This document shows, one piece after another, positions 23,826 through 31,031 of a stretch of 31,350 bases of DNA (positions within the stretch are counted from its first letter, which is position 1; every line of letters starts with the position of its first letter). Position numbers and translations under genes: made by a program. The stretch is from a virus. The stretch spans positions 1-31,350 of IMG/VR virus record IMGVR_UViG_3300013126_000145; one strand, 5' to 3'. Below the pieces are notes generated by a model that saw nothing but the letters and a program-made list of their open reading frames with translations, had not been told where the DNA came from and searched no databases.

Positions 23826-23855
23826 ATTATACTACTAAAGCAGCCCTAGGGTCAA
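23826..23855 (-). promoter_or_regulatory. promoter of the terminase genes, containing a CCCTAGGG motif
   Basis: Leftward TTGACC (23850-23855), 18-base spacer, TATAAT (23826-23831). The -35 and spacer include the palindrome CCCTAGGG (23844-23851), the same motif that is repeated through the right part of the window. The start should be near 23820, giving a leader of about 17 bases to the TerS ATG. Confidence 0.65.
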
Positions 23856-23877
23856 GTCAAAATTTTTCATGCTATGT

Positions 23878-24118
23878 GCAATTTACGGTGGCTGTCGGCG
23901 GCAATTTACGGCGGCAATTTACGGCGGCTTTTGGCACCGAAAGTGTTTTCAAACACGTTTTGTTGGAAATTTACTGTGGCAACTTATTGCAGTTGTTTTG
24001 GCACCGAAAGTACTTTCGAACACGTTTTGTTGGCAATTTACTACGGCACCGAAAGTACTTTCAAAAAATTACCCATGGTTTACGTAAAGGTGGGCGCATG
24101 GGCGATGGGCGCATGGGC
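23878..24118. repeat. direct repeat array upstream of terS (candidate cos/TerS binding region)
   Basis: Three copies of GCAATTTACGG (23878, 23901, 23914) are followed by three copies beginning GGCACCGAAAGT (23933, 24000, 24045). The first two continue in near identity for about 48 bases through ACACGTTTTGTTGG. Copies 2 and 3 contain the 12-bp palindrome GAAAGTACTTTC. At the right end GGGCGCATGGGC is repeated at a 15-base interval (24092, 24107). The block is GC-richer than its flanks. The six-frame openings here are shaped by the repeats and look non-coding. Confidence 0.8.
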
Positions 24119-24212
24119 AGTCTAATAACCGCCCCTAGCATAAATCCGGTAAAAAATCAACAAAAATATTTTATTTTTCTTTGCGCTAAATCAAAGAATT
24201 GCTAGATCATCA

Positions 24213-24249
24213 TGGTATAGTTTGCCCATCGGTTGAGATCACTCACCGA
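24213..24249 (+). promoter_or_regulatory. extended -10 promoter and operator-like inverted repeat
   Basis: TGG followed by TATAGT (24213-24221) is an extended -10 element. No good -35 is present at the usual distance. Directly downstream, ATCGGT (24228-24233) and ACCGAT (24244-24249) form an inverted repeat centred about 20 bases past the -10, a natural place for autoregulation by the HTH-like protein encoded next. Bases 24119-24212 are AT-rich and hold nothing else I can name. Confidence 0.5.
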
Positions 24250-24280
24250 TACTTTGTAACCTAACCTTAAAGGATTTATC

Positions 24281-24676
24281 ATGGGTGCAACCAAAACGGA
24301 AACGACGGTTAAGGCCGTCAACTATACTGCGGAGCAAACCGCAGAACTGGTGAATGCTTATAAAGCATCACCTACATCTGAAACCGTTGATGCTATGGCC
24401 ACGAAGTTTGGCAAGAATCGGCGTTCGATCATTGCCAAGCTGACCCGCGAACGGGTTTACGTCAAGGCTGAATATACCGGGAAAACCGGGCAAAAACCAG
24501 TTTTCAAGGATGCTACAGCCGACAAAATCGGGGAATTGCTCCGCATGAACGAGGGTGATATTACATCACTCACCAAGGCCAATAAATCGGCACTTGTTGC
24601 GATTTTGAACGCGTTGATTGCCTGTACTGTAAACGGTGCGGGTGAGACCGTGGCGCTTTCGGAAAGCATGGCGTAA
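24281..24676 (+). CDS. small HTH-like DNA-binding protein, paralogue 1
   Basis: A 131-residue protein with an AAAGGA ribosome site. Residues about 14-60 read YTAEQTAELVNAYKASPTSE, a spacer, then FGKNRRSIIAKLTREXVY-like sequence (X is Arg), which looks like a helix-turn-helix or Myb/SANT-like unit with a recognition helix (RRSIIAKL). Next comes EYTGKTGQKP and a C-terminal helical part (SLTKANKSALVAILNALI). Two other proteins in the window (27360-27671 and 27628-27942) share this layout. Small proteins of this kind are common in tailed phages, usually without assigned function. A role in regulating early or middle genes is inferred. It is the first gene of the rightward cassette. Confidence 0.75.
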   Translation: MGATKTETTVKAVNYTAEQTAELVNAYKASPTSETVDAMATKFGKNRRSIIAKLTRERVYVKAEYTGKTGQKPVFKDATADKIGELLRMNEGDITSLTKANKSALVAILNALIACTVNGAGETVALSESMA

Positions 24677-24683
24677 AGCAAAA

Positions 24684-24712
24684 ACCGGACAAGGTTTCTA
24701 CCCTTGTCCGGT
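24684..24712. promoter_or_regulatory. strong hairpin between the HTH-like and SprT-like genes
   Basis: ACCGGACAAGG (24684-24694) pairs with CCTTGTCCGGT (24702-24712): 11 bp perfect, 7-base loop. The rightward direction has no T run, so it is not a normal rightward terminator. The leftward direction is followed by TTTTTGCTTT and would terminate leftward transcripts. Rightward, the stem ends 5 bases before the SprT-like ATG and could limit ribosome access. Confidence 0.7.
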
Positions 24713-24717
24713 ATCGT

Positions 24718-25059
24718 ATGCAAAAAGCACACGTAACGCTTAATCGGTTTTGGGATATTGCATTGCAAACCCAAAACCCGAAATATATGCAAAACCTTAT
24801 TATTCCTGCACTCGCATGGAATAATAGGGTTCGCTCCGTTTTGGCGTATGCTGAGGCCGGGAAAAACCTAATCACTATTGGCACTTATAGCTATAGGATT
24901 AATCCTGATATTTATCACTCTGATATTATTGGGCATGAATTGGCGCATATTCTAGACTATCATTTATATGGTGAGCATTATCACCACCATAATAAAAATT
25001 GGGCAAAGATTATGCGTGATTTTGGACTAACCCCTAATAGGTGTTATGATGTTCATTGA
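24718..25059 (+). CDS. SprT-like zinc metalloprotease domain protein
   Basis: A 113-residue protein. GHELAHILDYHLYG contains the zinc-binding HExxH (73-77), and a downstream HHHNKNWAKIMRDFGL supplies a third ligand and the trailing pattern typical of SprT/Spartan-like proteases. The family includes enzymes that cut proteins bound or crosslinked to DNA. Phage members are usually reduced to this core, and their targets are not established. No Shine-Dalgarno precedes the ATG, and a strong hairpin ends just before it, so expression may be low or coupled. The gene overlaps the next membrane-protein gene by 14 bp. Confidence 0.8.
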   Translation: MQKAHVTLNRFWDIALQTQNPKYMQNLIIPALAWNNRVRSVLAYAEAGKNLITIGTYSYRINPDIYHSDIIGHELAHILDYHLYGEHYHHHNKNWAKIMRDFGLTPNRCYDVH

Positions 25060-25258
25060 GAAAATTGGCGTATCTGCGGGCATTGCTGGCGCGGTATTGA
25101 TGGCGCTTAAACTGGCGCTATTGGGTTACGTGGGGTTTTTTGTTTCCTCTGCGCTACTGTCATTTACAGCATATCGCAATGGGCAAACCAATTTGCTTAA
25201 ATTGCAGATTGTGTTTTTCTGGGTTAACCTTTTTGGGCTTTTCAATTATGCCAATTAA
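25046..25258 (+). CDS. small membrane protein
   Basis: A 70-residue protein with about three hydrophobic segments (VSAGIAGAVLMALKLALLGYV, GFFVSSALLSFTAY, LQIVFFWVNLFGLF) separated by a short polar turn (RNGQTN). The pattern resembles small inner-membrane proteins often seen in phages and sometimes annotated as transporter-like (PnuC/YgjV style). A holin is possible, but no lysis gene is next to it. It overlaps the SprT-like gene by 14 bp and the HAD gene by 11 bp, which supports it being translated. Function unknown. Confidence 0.7.
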   Translation: MMFIEKIGVSAGIAGAVLMALKLALLGYVGFFVSSALLSFTAYRNGQTNLLKLQIVFFWVNLFGLFNYAN

Positions 25259-25718
25259 GCGCGTTCATATTTATGATCTTGACGGAACTATTATCGATAG
25301 TTCCCACAGATACCGCGCTATCAATGGCAGAATTGATTTACAATTCTGGCGCGATAATGAGCATTTAGCATATTCGGACAGTTTGCTACCATTAGCTAAT
25401 CAGTATTGGCGAGATATTGCCGATACTGAATGCTTTACCATTATCGCAACTGCGCGGGTATTGTCAGAACCAGATAATCGGTTTATTCGGGATTTTCTCG
25501 GGATACCTAATCGGATTATCTCACGCAAAATTGATGATAATCAATCTGGCGCAATGCTGAAAATTAAGGGTATTATTGGCCTTTTCAATTTGCACGTTTT
25601 CAAACGCGCAGAGATTAAGGTATTCGAAGATAATATCCAATACCTAAAATCAATATGCGATGCACTAATGGCATATAATGTGCATGGCGTATATGTACCA
25701 TCAATTCAAGGCCATTAA
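25248..25718 (+). CDS. HAD-superfamily phosphatase
   Basis: A 156-residue protein starting MPIKRVHIYDLDGT. The longer upstream reading from 25140 lies on another gene and is rejected. Motif I is YDLDGTIID (Asp10, Asp12), motif II is IIATAR (Thr68), and motif IV is VFEDN (Glu127, Asp128). The short cap and ATAR motif resemble phage polynucleotide 5'/3' phosphatase domains, so nucleic acid end repair or nucleotide metabolism is likely, but the substrate is inferred. It overlaps the upstream membrane protein gene and lies 1 bp before the micropeptide gene. Confidence 0.85.
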   Translation: MPIKRVHIYDLDGTIIDSSHRYRAINGRIDLQFWRDNEHLAYSDSLLPLANQYWRDIADTECFTIIATARVLSEPDNRFIRDFLGIPNRIISRKIDDNQSGAMLKIKGIIGLFNLHVFKRAEIKVFEDNIQYLKSICDALMAYNVHGVYVPSIQGH

Positions 25719-25719
25719 A

Positions 25720-25806
25720 ATGAATACTCGCCCAATTTTGATTGATTATATTTTCGCTGCAATTATTGGCATAACCCTTGCTGCGGTTTTCATTTTCTTT
25801 TTCTAA
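25720..25806 (+). CDS. 28-residue membrane micropeptide
   Basis: The ATG follows the HAD stop by one base, and the stop is 8 bases before the next gene, so it exactly fills the gap in an otherwise tightly packed operon. The product begins MNTRPILIDYIF and then consists almost entirely of hydrophobic residues, ending in FIFFF. It should be a single transmembrane helix with a short polar N-terminus. No known family can be named at this size. Coding is supported by its packing between two genes and by the sharp amphipathic division. There is no clear Shine-Dalgarno, so coupling to the HAD gene is likely. Confidence 0.6.
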   Translation: MNTRPILIDYIFAAIIGITLAAVFIFFF

Positions 25807-25814
25807 GCAACATC

Positions 25815-26510
25815 ATGGCCAAAAAACAATATTTTATGATTGTTGATACGGAATCGACAATTAATAACCTTGTTGCCGATTTTGCTGCAATTATTGTAGA
25901 TTCTAAGGGTATCATTCATAATGAATGCGCGATATTGGTTAAAGGTATCTTTGACCAATATGATCTATTTCATAATACCGATTTAGAAGGTATCTGGACT
26001 AGGCGCAATCTAGAATCAAGGGTTACAGCATACACCGAAAAGCTGAAAACTGGAAAACGGTTATTTACTACTGTGGACAAAATCAACGCATGGCTTGAAA
26101 AAGCCAATACAAAATATGCGCCTACATTGACCGCATATAATCTGGCGTATGATGCTAATTTATGCGATGGCAGTAAAATCAATCTGGCGCAGTTTTCGGA
26201 AAGATTTTGTTTATGGCATGCAGCAACTGGTAATATCTGCAATACTCGCAAATACCATCAATTTGCATTGGAAAACCATTATTTCACTAAACCGACAAAA
26301 TTGGGCAATATGTCGATTTTGACCAATGCTGAATGTGTGGCGCATTTTGTACGCGGTAAAAAAGATATTGAACCGCATACCGCGCGAGAGGATTTAGATT
26401 TTGAACTAGATATTTTCAAACACTTAATTAAAAAGCGAAAATATAAACAAGGAATAACCCCTTATAATTGGCGAGATCATCAGGTGAAAGCCCATTATAA
26501 AGCAAAATAA
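25815..26510 (+). CDS. DEDDh 3'-5' exonuclease (DnaQ-like)
   Basis: A 231-residue protein. Motif I is FMIVDTEST (Asp11, Glu13), motif II is TAYNLAYDANLC (Asp113), and motif III is HTAREDLDF (His188, Asp193, the H-x4-D form). These define a DEDDh exonuclease of the kind used for proofreading or for RNA/DNA end trimming. A Cys/His-containing stretch (CNTRKYHQF) lies in the middle. It is the last gene of the rightward cassette and is followed by a terminator at 26523-26553. It has no obvious Shine-Dalgarno, suggesting coupling to the upstream micropeptide. Confidence 0.85.
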   Translation: MAKKQYFMIVDTESTINNLVADFAAIIVDSKGIIHNECAILVKGIFDQYDLFHNTDLEGIWTRRNLESRVTAYTEKLKTGKRLFTTVDKINAWLEKANTKYAPTLTAYNLAYDANLCDGSKINLAQFSERFCLWHAATGNICNTRKYHQFALENHYFTKPTKLGNMSILTNAECVAHFVRGKKDIEPHTAREDLDFELDIFKHLIKKRKYKQGITPYNWRDHQVKAHYKAK

Positions 26511-26522
26511 TTAAAACAAAAT

Positions 26523-26556
26523 AAACCCTAGGATTAAACCCCTAGGGTTTTTTATT
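26523..26556 (+). terminator. intrinsic terminator of the rightward cassette
   Basis: AAACCCTAGG (26523-26532) and CCTAGGGTTT (26541-26550) form a 10-bp perfect stem, with an 8-base loop and a following TTTATT. It is 12 bp after the exonuclease stop. It includes the CCTAGG core that is repeated as a separate motif to the right. Confidence 0.8.
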
Positions 26557-26563
26557 GCCTGAA

Positions 26564-26607
26564 AATATATTATTTACCGGATAATATATTATCCCGAATA
26601 ATATATT
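26564..26607. repeat. overlapping AT-rich palindromes, set A
   Basis: AATATATTAT (26564-26573) pairs with ATAATATATT (26581-26590) over a 7-base spacer. The sequence at 26583-26592 (AATATATTAT), overlapping that right arm, pairs with ATAATATATT at 26598-26607 over 5 bases. The two palindromes therefore share a central arm. Confidence 0.85.
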
Positions 26608-26617
26608 TGCGCCAAAC

Positions 26618-26756
26618 TATTATATAAGACACATTATATAATACTTACCGCGAGTATGTCCTACATAATATCATTATTATATAGGACCCATTATATAATA
26701 CCATGCAACTATTATATAAGACCCATTATATAATACCATGCAACTATTATATAATA
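26618..26756. repeat. iterated AT-rich inverted repeats, set B
   Basis: Three inverted repeats have TATTATATAA and TTATATAATA arms around a 6-base GACCCA/GACACA spacer: 26618-26643, 26675-26700 (one arm base differs) and 26710-26735. A spacerless half-copy, TATTATATAATA, lies at 26745-26756. The last three are 35 bases apart. They lie between converging or diverging units without a gene, so they are candidate binding sites or an AT-rich unwinding region. Confidence 0.85.
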
Positions 26757-26762
26757 GTATCT

Positions 26763-26862
26763 CGCAGCGCTCCGCGCTGCGCCAGTGCGAAATCTCAAGT
26801 GGAAAAATTTAATCGTAGTACGTGCGCCAGTGCGAAATATCAAGTGCAAAAACTTAGTCGTC
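26763..26862. repeat. GC hairpin followed by a 40-base direct duplication
   Basis: CGCAGCGC (26763-26770) pairs with GCGCTGCG (26774-26781) with a 3-base loop. A 40-base unit starting TGCGCCAGTGCGAAAT occurs at 26778-26817 and again at 26823-26862 with a few changes. The bases 26863-26980 hold no other structure I can support, and no gene. Confidence 0.75.
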
Positions 26863-26984
26863 GGTATGCGCCAATATTATACCTTAGCCAAATACTTTTT
26901 GTCAAGAGCATGTTTCTGACCCTAAAATGCAGCAAGCGGAGCGAGTCTGGAAAAATGTGGCAATTATATGAAGCCCTAGGGTCA

Positions 26985-27056
26985 GAGCAATTTAACAATC
27001 CAGAGCAATTTAACAATTCGGTGCAATTTAACAATTCGGAGCAACTCCAGTGCAAT
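26985..27056. repeat. 18-base tandem repeat next to a CCCTAGGG motif
   Basis: GAGCAATTTAACAAT starts at 26985, 27003 and (as GTGCAATTTAACAAT) 27021, with a degenerate fourth unit at 27039: a period of 18. It directly follows a CCCTAGGG motif at 26974-26981. A degenerate motif (CATAGGGTCAAA) lies at about 27078. The GCAATTTA word recurs upstream of terS and at 28653. Confidence 0.8.
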
Positions 27057-27097
27057 TTCTACCCCAAATTGCTACAGCCATAGGGTCAAATAAAAAA

Positions 27098-27132
27098 GCC
27101 GCCTTGATATTGTAATCAAGGCGGCCTATAAT
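27098..27132 (+). promoter_or_regulatory. promoter with a 28-base palindrome over the -35 and spacer (leftward terminator on the other strand)
   Basis: Rightward TTGATA (27104-27109), 17-base spacer, TATAAT (27127-27132). The perfect inverted repeat GCCGCCTTGAT (27098-27108) / ATCAAGGCGGC (27115-27125) covers the -35 and the spacer, so any dimer bound there would block the promoter. On the minus strand the same stem is followed by TTTTTTATTT and is a textbook intrinsic terminator for leftward transcription. One element therefore starts one unit and ends the opposing one. Confidence 0.8.
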
Positions 27133-27156
27133 AGACGTTATCAAAGGAGAAAAGCT

Positions 27157-27324
27157 ATGGAAACTAATGTACTAGACCTGGTTCGTATTTTTGGTGTTGT
27201 TCATTTCTATGATCTGGCAACCACTGAACAAGTGCGGGAATTTGAACGCCTGGTATTGTACAGTGAAAATGCTAAGAAGCTGGATGAACTCCAAGAAATC
27301 CAGACTTGCGAAGAATATCAGTAA
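27157..27324 (+). CDS. small acidic protein of unknown function
   Basis: A 55-residue protein (METNVLDLVRIFGVVHFYDL...). A strong AAAGGAG ribosome site (27143-27149) lies 7 bases upstream, and the promoter at 27104-27132 gives a short leader. It has a hydrophobic first half (LVRIFGVVHFYDL) and an acidic, helical second half (EQVREFERLVLYSENAKKLDELQEIQ). I do not recognise a family. It is transcribed together with the HTH-like gene at 27360, and its 3' end contains that gene's extra promoter, so an accessory role to the HTH protein is possible. Confidence 0.75.
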   Translation: METNVLDLVRIFGVVHFYDLATTEQVREFERLVLYSENAKKLDELQEIQTCEEYQ

Positions 27325-27334
27325 GCTATATAAT
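27306..27334 (+). promoter_or_regulatory. sigma70-like promoter for the second HTH-like gene
   Basis: TTGCGA (27306-27311), 17-base spacer, TATAAT (27329-27334), lying over the end of the 55-residue gene. The start should be near 27341, placing AAGGAA and the ATG at 27360 in a leader of about 19 bases. Confidence 0.65.
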
Positions 27335-27359
27335 TTAATCTTTAACAAGGAAACAAACT

Positions 27360-27671
27360 ATGTCGAAGCTCTATACCCCCGAACTGACTGCGAAAATTGT
27401 TGGTGAATACGTTTCTGGTAAATCCGTGGATGCTCTCGCTGCTGAAAACGCACTCAGTGTGCGCTCGGTGCGCGCAAAGCTGGTGCGTGAAAAGGTTTAC
27501 CAGTCGTCCACAGCGAAAGTGGCAACTCAGCGTACTACTAAGCGTGAAAACCTCAGCAAAATTGAGTCGCTCACCAATTTGCCCAGCAAGTCTCTTGACT
27601 CGCTGGTCTCCGCAAACAGCAGTGCAATTAGTCTGCTGCTGACTTGGATTCAAGCGCGGCAACAATCGTAA
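27360..27671 (+). CDS. small HTH-like DNA-binding protein, paralogue 2
   Basis: A 103-residue protein beginning MSKLYTPELTAKIVGEYVSG. SVDALAAENALSVRSVRAKLVREKVY is the same helix-turn-helix-like pattern as in paralogues 1 and 3 (A..Y..G..V..LA...L..RSV.AKL...VY). The C-terminal part (ESLTNLPSKSLDSLVSANSS) also matches the SL.K.NK region. AAGGAA is at a good distance. Its last 44 bases overlap the end of the convergent paralogue 3 gene. It uses more GC-rich codons than paralogue 3. Two promoters (27104 and 27306) can transcribe it, and a terminator at 27771-27807 would end the transcript inside the opposite gene. Confidence 0.75.
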   Translation: MSKLYTPELTAKIVGEYVSGKSVDALAAENALSVRSVRAKLVREKVYQSSTAKVATQRTTKRENLSKIESLTNLPSKSLDSLVSANSSAISLLLTWIQARQQS

Positions 27672-27942
27672 TAAGAATGCGTTTGTTGACTTTTTCTAGA
27701 GAATCTAGGTTTTCTAGACTTATATTGAGTAATTCTGACAATTTTTCAATATAAGAGGACTTTTTTACAGAAGGCTCTCCTAACTTTGTTAGGTAGGGCC
27801 TTTTTTTATACAAATTTAAAGAAGCCAGTTTTGCAATTACTGACTTCTGCGGCACGTTCAAATTCTCTGCGATTTGCTCAACAGGGATTCCTGCGGTGTA
27901 GTCTTCAATTAGTTTGAGTGTAAGTTCTTTACTGTAACGCAT
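27628..27942 (-). CDS. small HTH-like DNA-binding protein, paralogue 3
   Basis: A 104-residue protein beginning MRYSKELTLKLIEDYTAGIPVEQIAENLNVPQKSVIAKLASLNLY. This is the most regular of the three paralogues, with two probable helices and a recognition helix (KSVIAKL), then YLTKLGEP and a C-terminal SLEKVNKRILITIVAALES. It is co-transcribed with the 216-residue gene upstream, which it overlaps by 14 bp. It converges with paralogue 2 and overlaps it by 44 bp. A rightward terminator hairpin is built into its coding sequence at 27771-27807. Confidence 0.8.
   Translation of the reverse strand: MRYSKELTLKLIEDYTAGIPVEQIAENLNVPQKSVIAKLASLNLYKKRPYLTKLGEPSVKKSSYIEKLSELLNISLENLDSLEKVNKRILITIVAALESKSAAD
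27771..27807 (+). terminator. intrinsic terminator of the rightward HTH unit, inside the leftward gene
   Basis: Rightward, AAGGC (27771-27775) pairs with GCCTT, and CCTAAC (27779-27784) pairs with GTTAGG (27788-27793). The loop is TTT, there is an internal bulge, and the stem is followed by seven T residues. It lies 100 bp after the stop of paralogue 2 and within the codons of paralogue 3, where it encodes KKRPYLTKLGEP. Confidence 0.65.
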
Positions 27943-28579
27943 ATATGTTAATTAGTGGATCTGGTGTATTATCCCAGTTACTAGGGTCAAGAATCATATA
28001 AGAAGTGCGCAAGCTCGGGTGTGCCACCCAGATTTGCGCGAGCATTGTTTGAGCTAGAACAGGAAGACCGCCTAGTGCGGTTTCTTTTATTCCTGAAAGT
28101 CTCCAAGTTGTAGTAGCATTCTGAACCTGCCCCATTTTAGGGCCAGTTTTGATAGTTAATCCAATTTCGCGAGCTTCCAGAATATCTTCTCGTGTAATTC
28201 CAGAAATGTCACAAGTCATAGCATCGTACAAATTTTTGGGTACGAGCATATTTAAGCCCTCTGTAGACCATTTTGAGTATGGCACATTCTGGTACTGCTT
28301 TATACCAGCTAGAATTAATGGTACTAGAGCGCTATATTGTGGCAAAACTGATTGCTGTTTAATTAAATCTCCACGATTTCTATTTACAGCTAAATCCCAT
28401 AAGTGGCGATTTTCCTCTGAAATATTGTATTTTGCTGTAGCCCTAGGGTCAATTAAGCCGTTATCCCGATATTTGAGTTTGAAAGTTCCGAAGGCCGCAC
28501 AAAGCTGGGCTGGGAGCCAGGATTGGTGTGGCCATAAAGGAACGCTGAAATCTTTTATTGCTGAAAGTTGTTTTAACAT
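27929..28579 (-). CDS. conserved-looking phage protein of unknown function
   Basis: A 216-residue protein beginning MLKQLSAIKDFSVPLWPHQS. It is rich in Trp and Pro, with segments such as WLPAQLCAAFGTFKLKYRDNG and HPSLRTSYMILDPSNWDNTPDPL that look like a folded phage protein, but I cannot name the family. No membrane or signal segments are seen. Codons at 28441-28448 contain the CCCTAGGG motif. No Shine-Dalgarno is present: the ATG lies 7 bases after a TATAAT, so it is probably leaderless. It overlaps paralogue 3 by 14 bp, making a two-gene leftward unit. Confidence 0.7.
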   Translation of the reverse strand: MLKQLSAIKDFSVPLWPHQSWLPAQLCAAFGTFKLKYRDNGLIDPRATAKYNISEENRHLWDLAVNRNRGDLIKQQSVLPQYSALVPLILAGIKQYQNVPYSKWSTEGLNMLVPKNLYDAMTCDISGITREDILEAREIGLTIKTGPKMGQVQNATTTWRLSGIKETALGGLPVLAQTMLAQIWVAHPSLRTSYMILDPSNWDNTPDPLINIYALQ

Positions 28580-28586
28580 ATCTGAT

Positions 28587-28615
28587 ATTATACACTAGGG
28601 CAGTTATATAATCAA
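28587..28615 (-). promoter_or_regulatory. sigma70 promoter ending at the start codon
   Basis: Leftward TTGATT (28610-28615), 17-base spacer, TATAAT (28587-28592). The ATG (28577-28579) begins 7 bases after the -10, where the transcript should start, so the mRNA would have little or no leader. Confidence 0.75.
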
Positions 28616-28675
28616 GACAAAAAATTCTGACCCTAGGGCTGTAGCAAGTTGGAGCAATTTATCTAAGTGGGGGCT

Positions 28676-28757
28676 AATTTGTGCAGTGCAGCAATTTAAG
28701 CTAATTTGTGCAGTGCAGCAAATTTGTGCAGTGCAGCAAATCTACGCAGCCCTAGGG
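28676..28757. repeat. three-copy repeat next to CCCTAGGG motifs
   Basis: AATTTGTGCAGTGCAGCA occurs at 28676-28693, 28703-28720 and 28721-28738. CCCTAGGG motifs flank the block in opposite orientations at 28631-28638 (forward) and 28750-28757 (reverse). No gene is visible. The following AT-rich stretch 28758-28925 shows nothing I can name. Confidence 0.8.
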
Positions 28758-28925
28758 TCAAAAAATTTTTGGCAAAATTAAAAATTTATTACTCAACCTG
28801 CCTTCGAAATTGTTAGTCTAAAACCTAGATTTATTACTAGAAATGGAATGCAAAATAACATGAAATTGCTATACCGAAAAAATTCAAGGTATGGTAGTAG
28901 CTTGAAAAATTTTTAAATAAATTTA

Positions 28926-29125
28926 GCACCCAAAGTGCTGTAGAAAAATTTTTAGGGTCAATTTTTAGGCTTTTTATAATAGGCAGATGGTAGTAATAAA
29001 TACAATGTATTATACAGGTTATAGCCCTCTAAAAATTCTTTTGGCACCCAAAGTGCTGTAGAAAAATTTTTAGGGTCAATTTTTAGGCTTTTTATAATAG
29101 GCAGATGGTAGTAATAAATACAATG
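28926..29125. repeat. 82-base perfect direct duplication
   Basis: Bases 28926-29007 are repeated without change at 29044-29125, with 36 bases between. Each copy starts with the small hairpin GCAC CCAAA GTGC, contains AGGGTCAA (a degenerate CCCTAGGG motif) and a TATAAT, and ends AAATACAATG. An open frame across both copies (28958-29143) repeats the same peptide and has no ribosome site, so I regard the stretch as non-coding. Confidence 0.9.
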
Positions 29126-29141
29126 CTCTGACCCTAGGGCC

Positions 29142-29183
29142 ATAGTAGATATAGTAGATATAGTAGATATAGTAGATATAGTA
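29142..29183. repeat. 9-base microsatellite (ATAGTAGAT)
   Basis: Four perfect copies of ATAGTAGAT and a partial fifth. It directly follows a CCCTAGGG motif at 29132-29139. The unit contains a TATAGT, like the -10 of the tandem elements at 29688. Confidence 0.9.
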
Positions 29184-29188
29184 ATTTA

Positions 29189-29283
29189 CCTAGAGTATAT
29201 TGACCCTAGGGCTATAGCAATCTCAGCAATCATAATAACTATAGCAATAATCCTAGAGTATATTGACCCTAGGGATATAGTAA
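29189..29283. repeat. two-copy CCTAGAGTATATTGACCC element
   Basis: The sequence starting CCTAGAGTATATTGACCCTA occurs at 29189 and 29252, 63 bases apart. Each copy carries CCCTAGGG (29204-29211 and 29267-29274), followed by TATAG and a sequence resembling AGCAA/AGTAA. Confidence 0.8.
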
Positions 29284-29310
29284 TCCTAGAATCAACCTAG
29301 GAAACAGATC

Positions 29311-29508
29311 GTGCAAAGTCCATACTTGGCAGATCGATACAATTTACCCAAGTCTTACAAGGTTAAACTCCTTGAATTAACTCCAAATCATCGATTTCCT
29401 TTAGAAATTCAAAAAATCAACAAACATAGGTATCCTGTATTATGCATTGCTATCTACCCGGCAGATTTGTATAATCTCACCCAATCACCTGGTCTTGCTG
29501 CGGGCTGA
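29311..29508 (+). CDS. possible small protein with GTG start
   Basis: A 65-residue reading frame from a GTG preceded by AGGA at an 8-base spacing. The product (MQSPYLADRYNLPKSYKVKL ... PNHRFPLEIQKINKHRYPV) has a normal amino acid mix and could be a real small protein. Its last 17 codons lie in the foldable RNA element at 29453, and there is no good promoter. It has no recognisable family. Either it is a small gene whose 3' end became part of the structure, or it is a chance opening. I weigh these about equally. Confidence 0.35.
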   Translation: MQSPYLADRYNLPKSYKVKLLELTPNHRFPLEIQKINKHRYPVLCIAIYPADLYNLTQSPGLAAG

Positions 29509-29573
29509 GCCTCGCGTCCAGGTTTGTGAATGATTCTACAATCTGCCGGTTTAGTATTCGGTAGAATATAACC
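29453..29573 (-). ncRNA. long foldable RNA element, probable novel non-coding RNA
   Basis: Nested pairings: CCGGCAGATT (29458-29467) with AATCTGCCGG (29540-29549), extended by GTA/TAC over a single bulge. Inside are ACCTGG (29487-29492) with CCAGGT (29518-29523), and a GCGGGC (29500-29505) / GCCTCGC hairpin with a 3-base loop. An outer TCTAC (29453-29457) / GTAGA (29561-29565) pairing is possible, while ATTCTAC (29533-29539) competes for the same GTAGAAT (29561-29567). The minus strand has a promoter just upstream (29577-29605) that would place the 5' end near 29573, so the minus strand is the likely transcript. It has no tRNA features, and I cannot match it to a known RNA family. Confidence 0.6.
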
Positions 29574-29576
29574 TAT

Positions 29577-29605
29577 ATTATAGCACACTTTTTAGCGATA
29601 TTCAA
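29577..29605 (-). promoter_or_regulatory. sigma70 promoter reading into the foldable RNA
   Basis: Leftward TTGAAT (29600-29605), 17-base spacer, TATAAT (29577-29582) with TGC before it (extended -10). No leftward gene follows within several hundred bases, so the product is most likely an untranslated RNA. The AT-rich stretch 29606-29687 holds nothing else I can identify. Confidence 0.7.
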
Positions 29606-29687
29606 GCCAATTTTTTGCTAGGGTTAATGAAATCTTGCGAATTTTGAGGGCTGAGTAAAATTTTTATTTTTTATTGGCTGGTTATGG

Positions 29688-29820
29688 CTGACCCTAGGGC
29701 TGTAGCAGACTATAGTTGACTGTAATTGACCCTAGGGCTGTAGCAGACTATAGTTGACTGTAATTGACCCTAGGGCTGTAACAGACTATAGTTGACTGTA
29801 ATTGACCCTAGGGCTGTAAC
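29688..29820 (+). repeat. 38-base tandem repeats, each resembling a promoter
   Basis: CCCTAGGG occurs at 29692, 29730, 29768 and 29806, exactly 38 bases apart. In the first three units (C/T)TGACC is followed after 17 bases by TATAGT (29711-29716, 29749-29754, 29787-29792). The fourth keeps the -35-like half and lacks a -10. Units contain two palindromes, CCCTAGGG and ACTATAGT. If active, the promoters point rightward into the antisense of the thyX gene. Confidence 0.85.
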
Positions 29821-29833
29821 AATCACAGCAGGC

Positions 29834-30649
29834 TTAAGTCTCTAGTAGTTTTCTATACTGCACCCAGCCTTGCAGATTGCCAGACCATTTATTATTATTC
29901 ATATCTACATGAGATACACCGTAAAAACCCTCAATAGGTGTTGCTTGATGTTCTAGAGGACTGGCATGCATAGGGTCAGAATACACTAATCTCTTAATAA
30001 TATCTCTAGCCTTCTCAATACTAGGGTCATTCTTTCTATATGACACCTGAGCACAACAGGAGACCGATATATCTCTAGCCTCTTCTAGCGAATACTCTAC
30101 TCCACTAGAATAATACTTGCCATCTATAAAATCAATGTAAGGTAAATGCCACTGACCTGGTAGCAGCTTAGTAGGTATTGAATTATTTAGTGCATCTCTA
30201 ATACCTTCAGCTAATACCCTAAACTCTGGCTGAGCATCTTTATGAGTTCTTAAATACAGAAAGTTGCTCCACTCTGTTCCAGATATAACTGTTTTCATTA
30301 GCATCCAAGGTTCAGTAATGCGGTTCAATATCTGTTTATGAACTCCTAGCTCTGCTAACTCATCTCTGAATTTAATTGCTGAGTCTCTTGCCTTAAACCA
30401 GATATCTCTAGCACTATCTTTATCTTCAATCTCTTCTTTAGCTTGCATACCTGGCTGGTTTTTGCCCCACTCTGATGGCTCCGCCGTCAAGACCGTGGCA
30501 TTTTTAGGTATTGCTCTGCTTGAAGAGCTGTTTTTTGATAACATTCTGTGAGTATTTACCTCCGCCAGAATAAATCTTGGATACTCTATCTCTAGAGTAA
30601 CCATTCTGTTTCCTGACGTATTAACACTATCTGCTAGAACTTTAATCAT
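29834..30649 (-). CDS. thyX: ThyX-like flavin-dependent thymidylate synthase
   Basis: A 271-residue protein. NTHRMLSKNSSSSRAIP (32-48) corresponds to the RHRxxS flavin/dUMP motif with Thr in place of the first Arg, as in many phage forms. WGKNQPGM, VHKQILNRITEPWM, ISGTEWSNFLYLR, GQWHLPYID, HASPLEHQATP and GNLQGWVQYRK are other family blocks. The enzyme makes dTMP from dUMP with methylenetetrahydrofolate and NADPH/FAD, supplying thymidine for AT-rich phage DNA. It overlaps the hydrolase gene upstream by 8 bp and should be expressed from that gene's promoter at 31038. Confidence 0.88.
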   Translation of the reverse strand: MIKVLADSVNTSGNRMVTLEIEYPRFILAEVNTHRMLSKNSSSSRAIPKNATVLTAEPSEWGKNQPGMQAKEEIEDKDSARDIWFKARDSAIKFRDELAELGVHKQILNRITEPWMLMKTVISGTEWSNFLYLRTHKDAQPEFRVLAEGIRDALNNSIPTKLLPGQWHLPYIDFIDGKYYSSGVEYSLEEARDISVSCCAQVSYRKNDPSIEKARDIIKRLVYSDPMHASPLEHQATPIEGFYGVSHVDMNNNKWSGNLQGWVQYRKLLET

Positions 30650-31031
30650 AAAATAAATGGTTTCCTATTTGAACAATAAACCGTCGCTGTTTGGCCCACT
30701 TCGGGGCAACATTGACGGAATGAAAATGAGTTGCTTTAAAATAGTTTTTAGTGTTTAGTGCTTCTTTTGCAACTCGCATAGCAGCTAACCACTCTTCTTT
30801 TACTACATTAGTTGAATAGTTAAGAGTCCAAGAGAACTGATACTTTTCAAATACAGCATCGCATACTGATCTATTTTTACTACGATTTAGGGTGACAAAA
30901 GCAACTGCTAACTGCCCTGCTTTAGGCTCACCTTTAGCTTCATAGTATATGTTTTGGGTTAAACAATGTAAATCATTAGCTCTAGCATGAAAACTAAGTA
31001 ACATAAGGATGATAAGGAATAATAGTCTCAT
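30642..31031 (-). CDS. secreted cell wall hydrolase (SleB family), probable endolysin
   Basis: A 129-residue protein. The N-terminus MRLLFLIILMLLSFHARAND is a typical Sec signal, with likely cleavage after ARA. The rest (CLTQNIYYEAKGEPKAGQLAVAFVTLNR ... ATHFHSVNVAPKWAKQ) matches the SleB/cell wall hydrolase domain, with the catalytic Glu expected in YYEAKGE. It would degrade peptidoglycan from the periplasm and so serve as, or assist, the lysis enzyme. The start codon coincides with the predicted transcript start, and no Shine-Dalgarno is seen. It overlaps thyX by 8 bp, an unusual pairing of lysis and nucleotide genes. Confidence 0.88.
   Translation of the reverse strand: MRLLFLIILMLLSFHARANDLHCLTQNIYYEAKGEPKAGQLAVAFVTLNRSKNRSVCDAVFEKYQFSWTLNYSTNVVKEEWLAAMRVAKEALNTKNYFKATHFHSVNVAPKWAKQRRFIVQIGNHLFYD

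Follow-up and report, generated by a model that had tools for sequence, protein, structure and literature searches.

The convergent gene pair S-P2 and Q-P3 was analyzed within the window, by which we refer to the complete 31,350 bases of IMG/VR record IMGVR_UViG_3300013126_000145, probably a fragment. As read from its sequence, the pair forms a real, lineage-specific overlap that is ordinary in kind and lies inside a conserved but little-described regulator module (Table 1). This module, consisting of three GcrA-like paralogues (P1, P2, and P3) and Q in a convergent layout, is kept across T5-like freshwater phages and is barely recognized by PHROGs and Pfam. We propose that the pair is probably a copy of this module in which the spacer is missing, and that the resulting one-sided interference would tune timing or dose.

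Table 1. Genes, predicted regulatory elements and boxes of the convergent pair and its surroundings (positions in the window)
Feature	Position	Strand	Description
P1	24281-24676	+	third paralogue, same HTH family
Further leftward promoter, predicted	26876-26905	-	TTGACA-18-TATAAT, 12/12 consensus; TAGGGTCA box upstream
TAGGGTCA box, S-P2 unit	27081-27088	+	15 nt before S-P2 promoter -35
S-P2 promoter, predicted sigma70-type	27104-27132	+	TTGATA-17-TATAAT, 11/12 consensus
Q-P3 terminator, predicted intrinsic	27126-27089	-	12-bp stem, dG -21.5, T tract
S	27157-27324	+	55-residue gene; AAAGGAG ribosome site
P2	27360-27671	+	103-residue HTH paralogue
P2/P3 reading-frame overlap	27628-27671	both	44 bp, tail-to-tail
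P3	27628-27942	-	104-residue HTH paralogue
S-P2 terminator, predicted	27770-27809	+	dG -19.2, then T run; inside P3 gene
Q	27929-28579	-	216-residue gene
Q-P3 promoter, predicted sigma70-type	28615-28587	-	TTGATT-17-TATAAT, 10/12 consensus
TAGGGTCA box, Q-P3 unit	28635-28628	-	12 nt before Q-P3 promoter -35

In the window, S and P2 make up the rightward unit and Q and P3 the leftward unit, with the 3' end of Q overlapping the start of P3 by 14 bp. The gene anatomy described in the first-pass annotation was reproduced, since all features that it named are present, in place or displaced by a few bases. This includes the overlap of the P2 and P3 coding ends as well as both promoters and both terminators, which we recovered as predictions. 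That annotation had missed that the -35 element of the S-P2 promoter is located inside the hairpin stem of the Q-P3 terminator, and that the Q start codon follows the -10 element of its promoter by only about 7 nt, which would leave the Q message almost without a leader. The further leftward promoter sits within a stretch (about 26760-26940) that is conserved in related phages.

A transcript of the S-P2 unit, starting near 27139 and ending at about 27807, would overlap the Q-P3 transcript by about 670 nt, close to the roughly 700 bases claimed previously. As the P2 terminator sits inside P3 and the spacer is missing, P3 has its nearest strong terminator on the S-P2 promoter, about 530 nt further downstream. 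The overlap is asymmetric: the predicted Q-P3 transcript spans the whole S-P2 unit including its promoter, and the predicted S-P2 transcript extends over no more than the final ~180 nt of P3. Readthrough at the predicted terminators is possible, as is dominance by other promoters. We found no second contig with the same P2/P3 junction, and an assembly or strain peculiarity is thus possible.

Convergent genes without an intervening terminator represent one of the excludon organizations described in a review of overlapping transcription (PMC7154746). No terminator was predicted between the stop codons of P2 and P3, and we therefore consider the structural label of an excludon fair for the predicted pair, whose mRNAs would be antisense to each other as in the class with convergent 3'-UTR overlap (PMC7154746). 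The pair differs from this class in that its products are paralogous phage regulators, and in that the overlap, known here from sequence prediction, is absent from all relatives examined.

The paralogy of the HTH proteins on opposing strands, which had also been claimed, was borne out: P3 retrieves both P2 (27% identity, E 6e-8) and P1 (34% identity, E 3e-11). Our first classification into P1, P2, and P3 was made with profiles to which the window proteins had contributed; when it was repeated without them, all three assignments were unchanged. With these independent subfamily profiles, the window P2 scored 69.8 bits for P2, 59.0 for P1, and 39.6 for P3, and the window P1 scored 124.5 bits for its own subfamily. 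The AlphaFold model of P3 (pLDDT 89.9) comprises an N-terminal HTH (residues 1-44) and a C-terminal three-helix region, and its three best structural matches (VIA-align) are all GcrA (5yiv_A, Z 8.6; 5yiu, Z 8.3; 7ye1_G, Z 7.8). Residues 1-44 resemble the GcrA DNA-binding domain (5yiv/5yiu, PF07750) with an rmsd of 1.0 A over 44 residues and 32% identity. However, Pfam GcrA scores amount to 14-18 bits (maximum 17.6) and stay below the PF07750 cut-off of 26.9, the match of a sequence profile to GcrA is weak (E 0.61), and the proteins are short, of phage origin, and present in three copies. Judged by the model, P1, P2, and P3 are GcrA-like HTH proteins; because the Pfam scores are under the cut-off, we use this name and do not file them as members of the GcrA family. 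Weak profile matches, mostly to the HTH region, were also obtained for PHROG 1725 (DNA binding protein; best E 8.9e-9 in relatives) and PHROG 323 (D5-like transcriptional regulator; best E 1.9e-5 in relatives), although the window matches to the latter (E 7e-4 to 9.5e-4) cover no more than about 50-80 of its 319 positions. No close homologue was found among 50,697 phage records.

Relatives of the module had to be identified with alignments, as searches by the Q or P3 sequence alone returned little or nothing; profile searches yielded 80 loci each for the HTH family and for Q. About 70 distinct relatives retain the order P1, P2, P3, and Q, with P3 facing P2 and the layout always convergent; one clade carries a P1-like gene in the place of P2 opposite P3. 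The facing stop codons are 235-3349 bp apart in the relatives and -44 bp in the window alone, and the P2/P3 reading-frame overlap was seen in none of the ~70 relatives. Of 73 relatives, 70 have a predicted terminator 39-141 nt after the P3 stop, and none (0/73) has a predicted transcript overlap. The units of the relatives are thus kept apart: convergence is conserved, the overlap is not. Since the overlap is confined to the window, we regard it as a lineage-specific compaction and not as a conserved excludon or toggle. The large terminase encoded in the window is about 47-48% identical, over 99% of the protein, to those of large phages of Vibrio and Pectobacterium, which we take to be T5-like; by its terminase large subunit, the window phage is T5-like. 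The window also encodes a ThyX-type thymidylate synthase and, after it, a Hydrolase_2-family cell wall hydrolase (29834-31031, minus strand).

In the relatives, the two units are parted by a stretch bounded by predicted terminators, often with a hammerhead-ribozyme RNA, and this spacer is missing in the window. Polymerase transcribing Q-P3 would consequently cross S-P2 and could occlude the S-P2 promoter together with its box. Additionally, the paired Q-P3 and S-P2 RNAs would, as double-stranded RNA, be open to cutting by RNase III. The net effect would be that Q-P3 dampens S-P2, with a weaker reverse interference acting on the last 180 nt of P3. Given the predicted layout, Q-P3 transcription would most likely interfere with S-P2 in a one-sided manner, and the role of this interference would most likely be a tuning of the timing or dose of the regulators, not a bistable toggle.

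Neutral compaction, through loss of intergenic sequence or insertion of S-P2 into the P3 3' UTR, could have created an overlap without regulatory consequence. The overlap is unique to the window, and window positions 26760-26940 match two regions of the relatives, namely the one before S (E 3e-11) and the end of the gap nearest to P3 (E 1e-14). Since both candidate regions are matched, the insertion and deletion histories are inseparable and either origin of the overlap is possible. We nevertheless consider an overlap without consequence rather unlikely, as the antisense terminator inside P3 far exceeds the strength expected from codon choice. When P3 was recoded synonymously 400 times with phage codon usage, an antisense terminator of -19 or below was obtained in 0 of 400 recodings, and -15 was reached by 0.5%. 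The in-gene terminator is therefore no by-product of the P3 protein sequence, and the transcript ends, at least, seem to be under selection. This suggests selection on the overlapping layout and is compatible with a role stronger than mere compaction.

The first-pass annotation had proposed an excludon-like toggle, in which mutual antisense repression and cross-binding of the paralogues would hold either an S-P2 or a Q-P3 state. While the convergent overlap at the predicted 3' ends and the paralogy of the predicted DNA-binding products stood, the proposed switching finds no support in conservation, and we regard the toggle as improbable. The failure of codon choice to explain the in-gene terminator would fit it, as would the TAGGGTCA box upstream of both promoters. 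However, the overlap is one-sided, and its absence from the relatives indicates that conservation does not extend to mutual antisense repression. T5-like phages are virulent, so that control of timing or dose is likelier than a bistable toggle; further, no lysogeny genes were recognized in the window. A bistable switch is thus unlikely in a T5-like phage.

The TAGGGTCA box is strongly over-represented in related phages and is a possible activator box, but at the two promoters in relatives it occurs in 5 of 69 and 3 of 58 cases, compared to 2.5% at random positions. We therefore rejected the idea that the box marks both units family-wide, as there is no clear enrichment at these promoters. With a box upstream of each predicted promoter in the window, a common regulator is conceivable, and a box common to both would favor co-regulation rather than exclusion.

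In many relatives, the gap between P2 and P3 contains a conserved noncoding stretch in the direction of P2, with its own promoter-like and terminator-like sequences and sometimes a tRNA-Glu. A hammerhead pattern, made up of CUGANGA...GAAA, stems I to III, and either GUC or GUA as the cleavage site, was detected in 40 of 77 distinct gaps and never on their reverse strand. The three stems are 95% paired over 18 sequences, 9 of 17 pairs are changed on both sides, and 0 shuffles equaled this. Searching 76 loci with a covariance model returned 54 matches, nearly all in the P2-P3 gap. Predicted type I-like hammerheads lie within noncoding stretches of 0.6-2 kb, for example in loci L101 (6907-7013, minus strand), L024 (7217-7323, minus strand), and L011 (7076-7183, minus strand). 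Matches outside the gap, upstream of Q, were observed in L018 (391-496, plus strand) and L021 (1581-1685, plus strand), from the clade with the P1-like facing gene. Rfam, applied to the window and the gaps of the relatives, reported only tRNA above threshold and did not recognize the hammerhead. The P2-P3 gap itself is absent from the window, and no intact hammerhead copy was found there; the best match (26910-27011, minus strand, 17.4 bits) was rejected as a working hammerhead since both core strands are missing.

That the hammerhead RNA couples or insulates the units in relatives, and that in the window a direct mRNA overlap took over as RNA-level switch between the paralogues, seems very doubtful to us. 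Insulated pairs that are separated by a ribozyme RNA and one fused, overlapping pair provide a natural comparison, which makes it directly testable how convergent overlap affects a pair of regulators. The ribozyme RNA of the relatives may matter more than the overlap of the window and is the more striking lead.

Homologues of Q precede P3 in relatives with enough flanking sequence, making Q a conserved partner of P3. Its confident structure model (pLDDT 92.6) had no fold match in the PDB, a viral library returned only unnamed phage homologues, and Q matches no known family. In an alignment, the variable tail of the relatives' Q proteins is followed by a conserved terminal PW motif, and the window Q stops before this motif. 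S is the positional counterpart of a small gene preceding P2 in relatives (e.g., L017 8186-8332, minus strand), whose protein product is acidic, conserved, and about 44 residues long. Homology between the two is unsupported (relatives' S profile against the window S, E 0.24). The acidic protein ends in FEFDDVPF or similar, resembling the C-terminal tip of bacterial SSB, an ending that is absent from the window S.

Several repeats were observed in addition. Of 482 instances of TAGGGTCA, 37 precede a sigma70-type promoter with constant spacing, mostly 11-12 nt ahead of TTGA, compared to 0-1 in controls; examples are found at window positions 26924 and 28635 (both minus strand) and in relatives, and the same string also occurs in the hammerhead cleavage arm. 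CCCTAGGG occurs 13 times in window positions 23844-29813 (0.2 expected), mostly intergenic at the right end and often as CCCTAGGGTC. TTTAGGGTC is present 11-18 times per ~100 kb, versus 0-2 for the reversed control, in the whole records behind L009, L024, L101, L052, L088, L105, and L141, and once only in the record behind L104. Finally, a segment of roughly 80 bases (cacccaaagtgctgtagaaaaatttttagggtc...) is duplicated nearly exactly at 28930-29125 of the window, with TAGGGTC in each copy.
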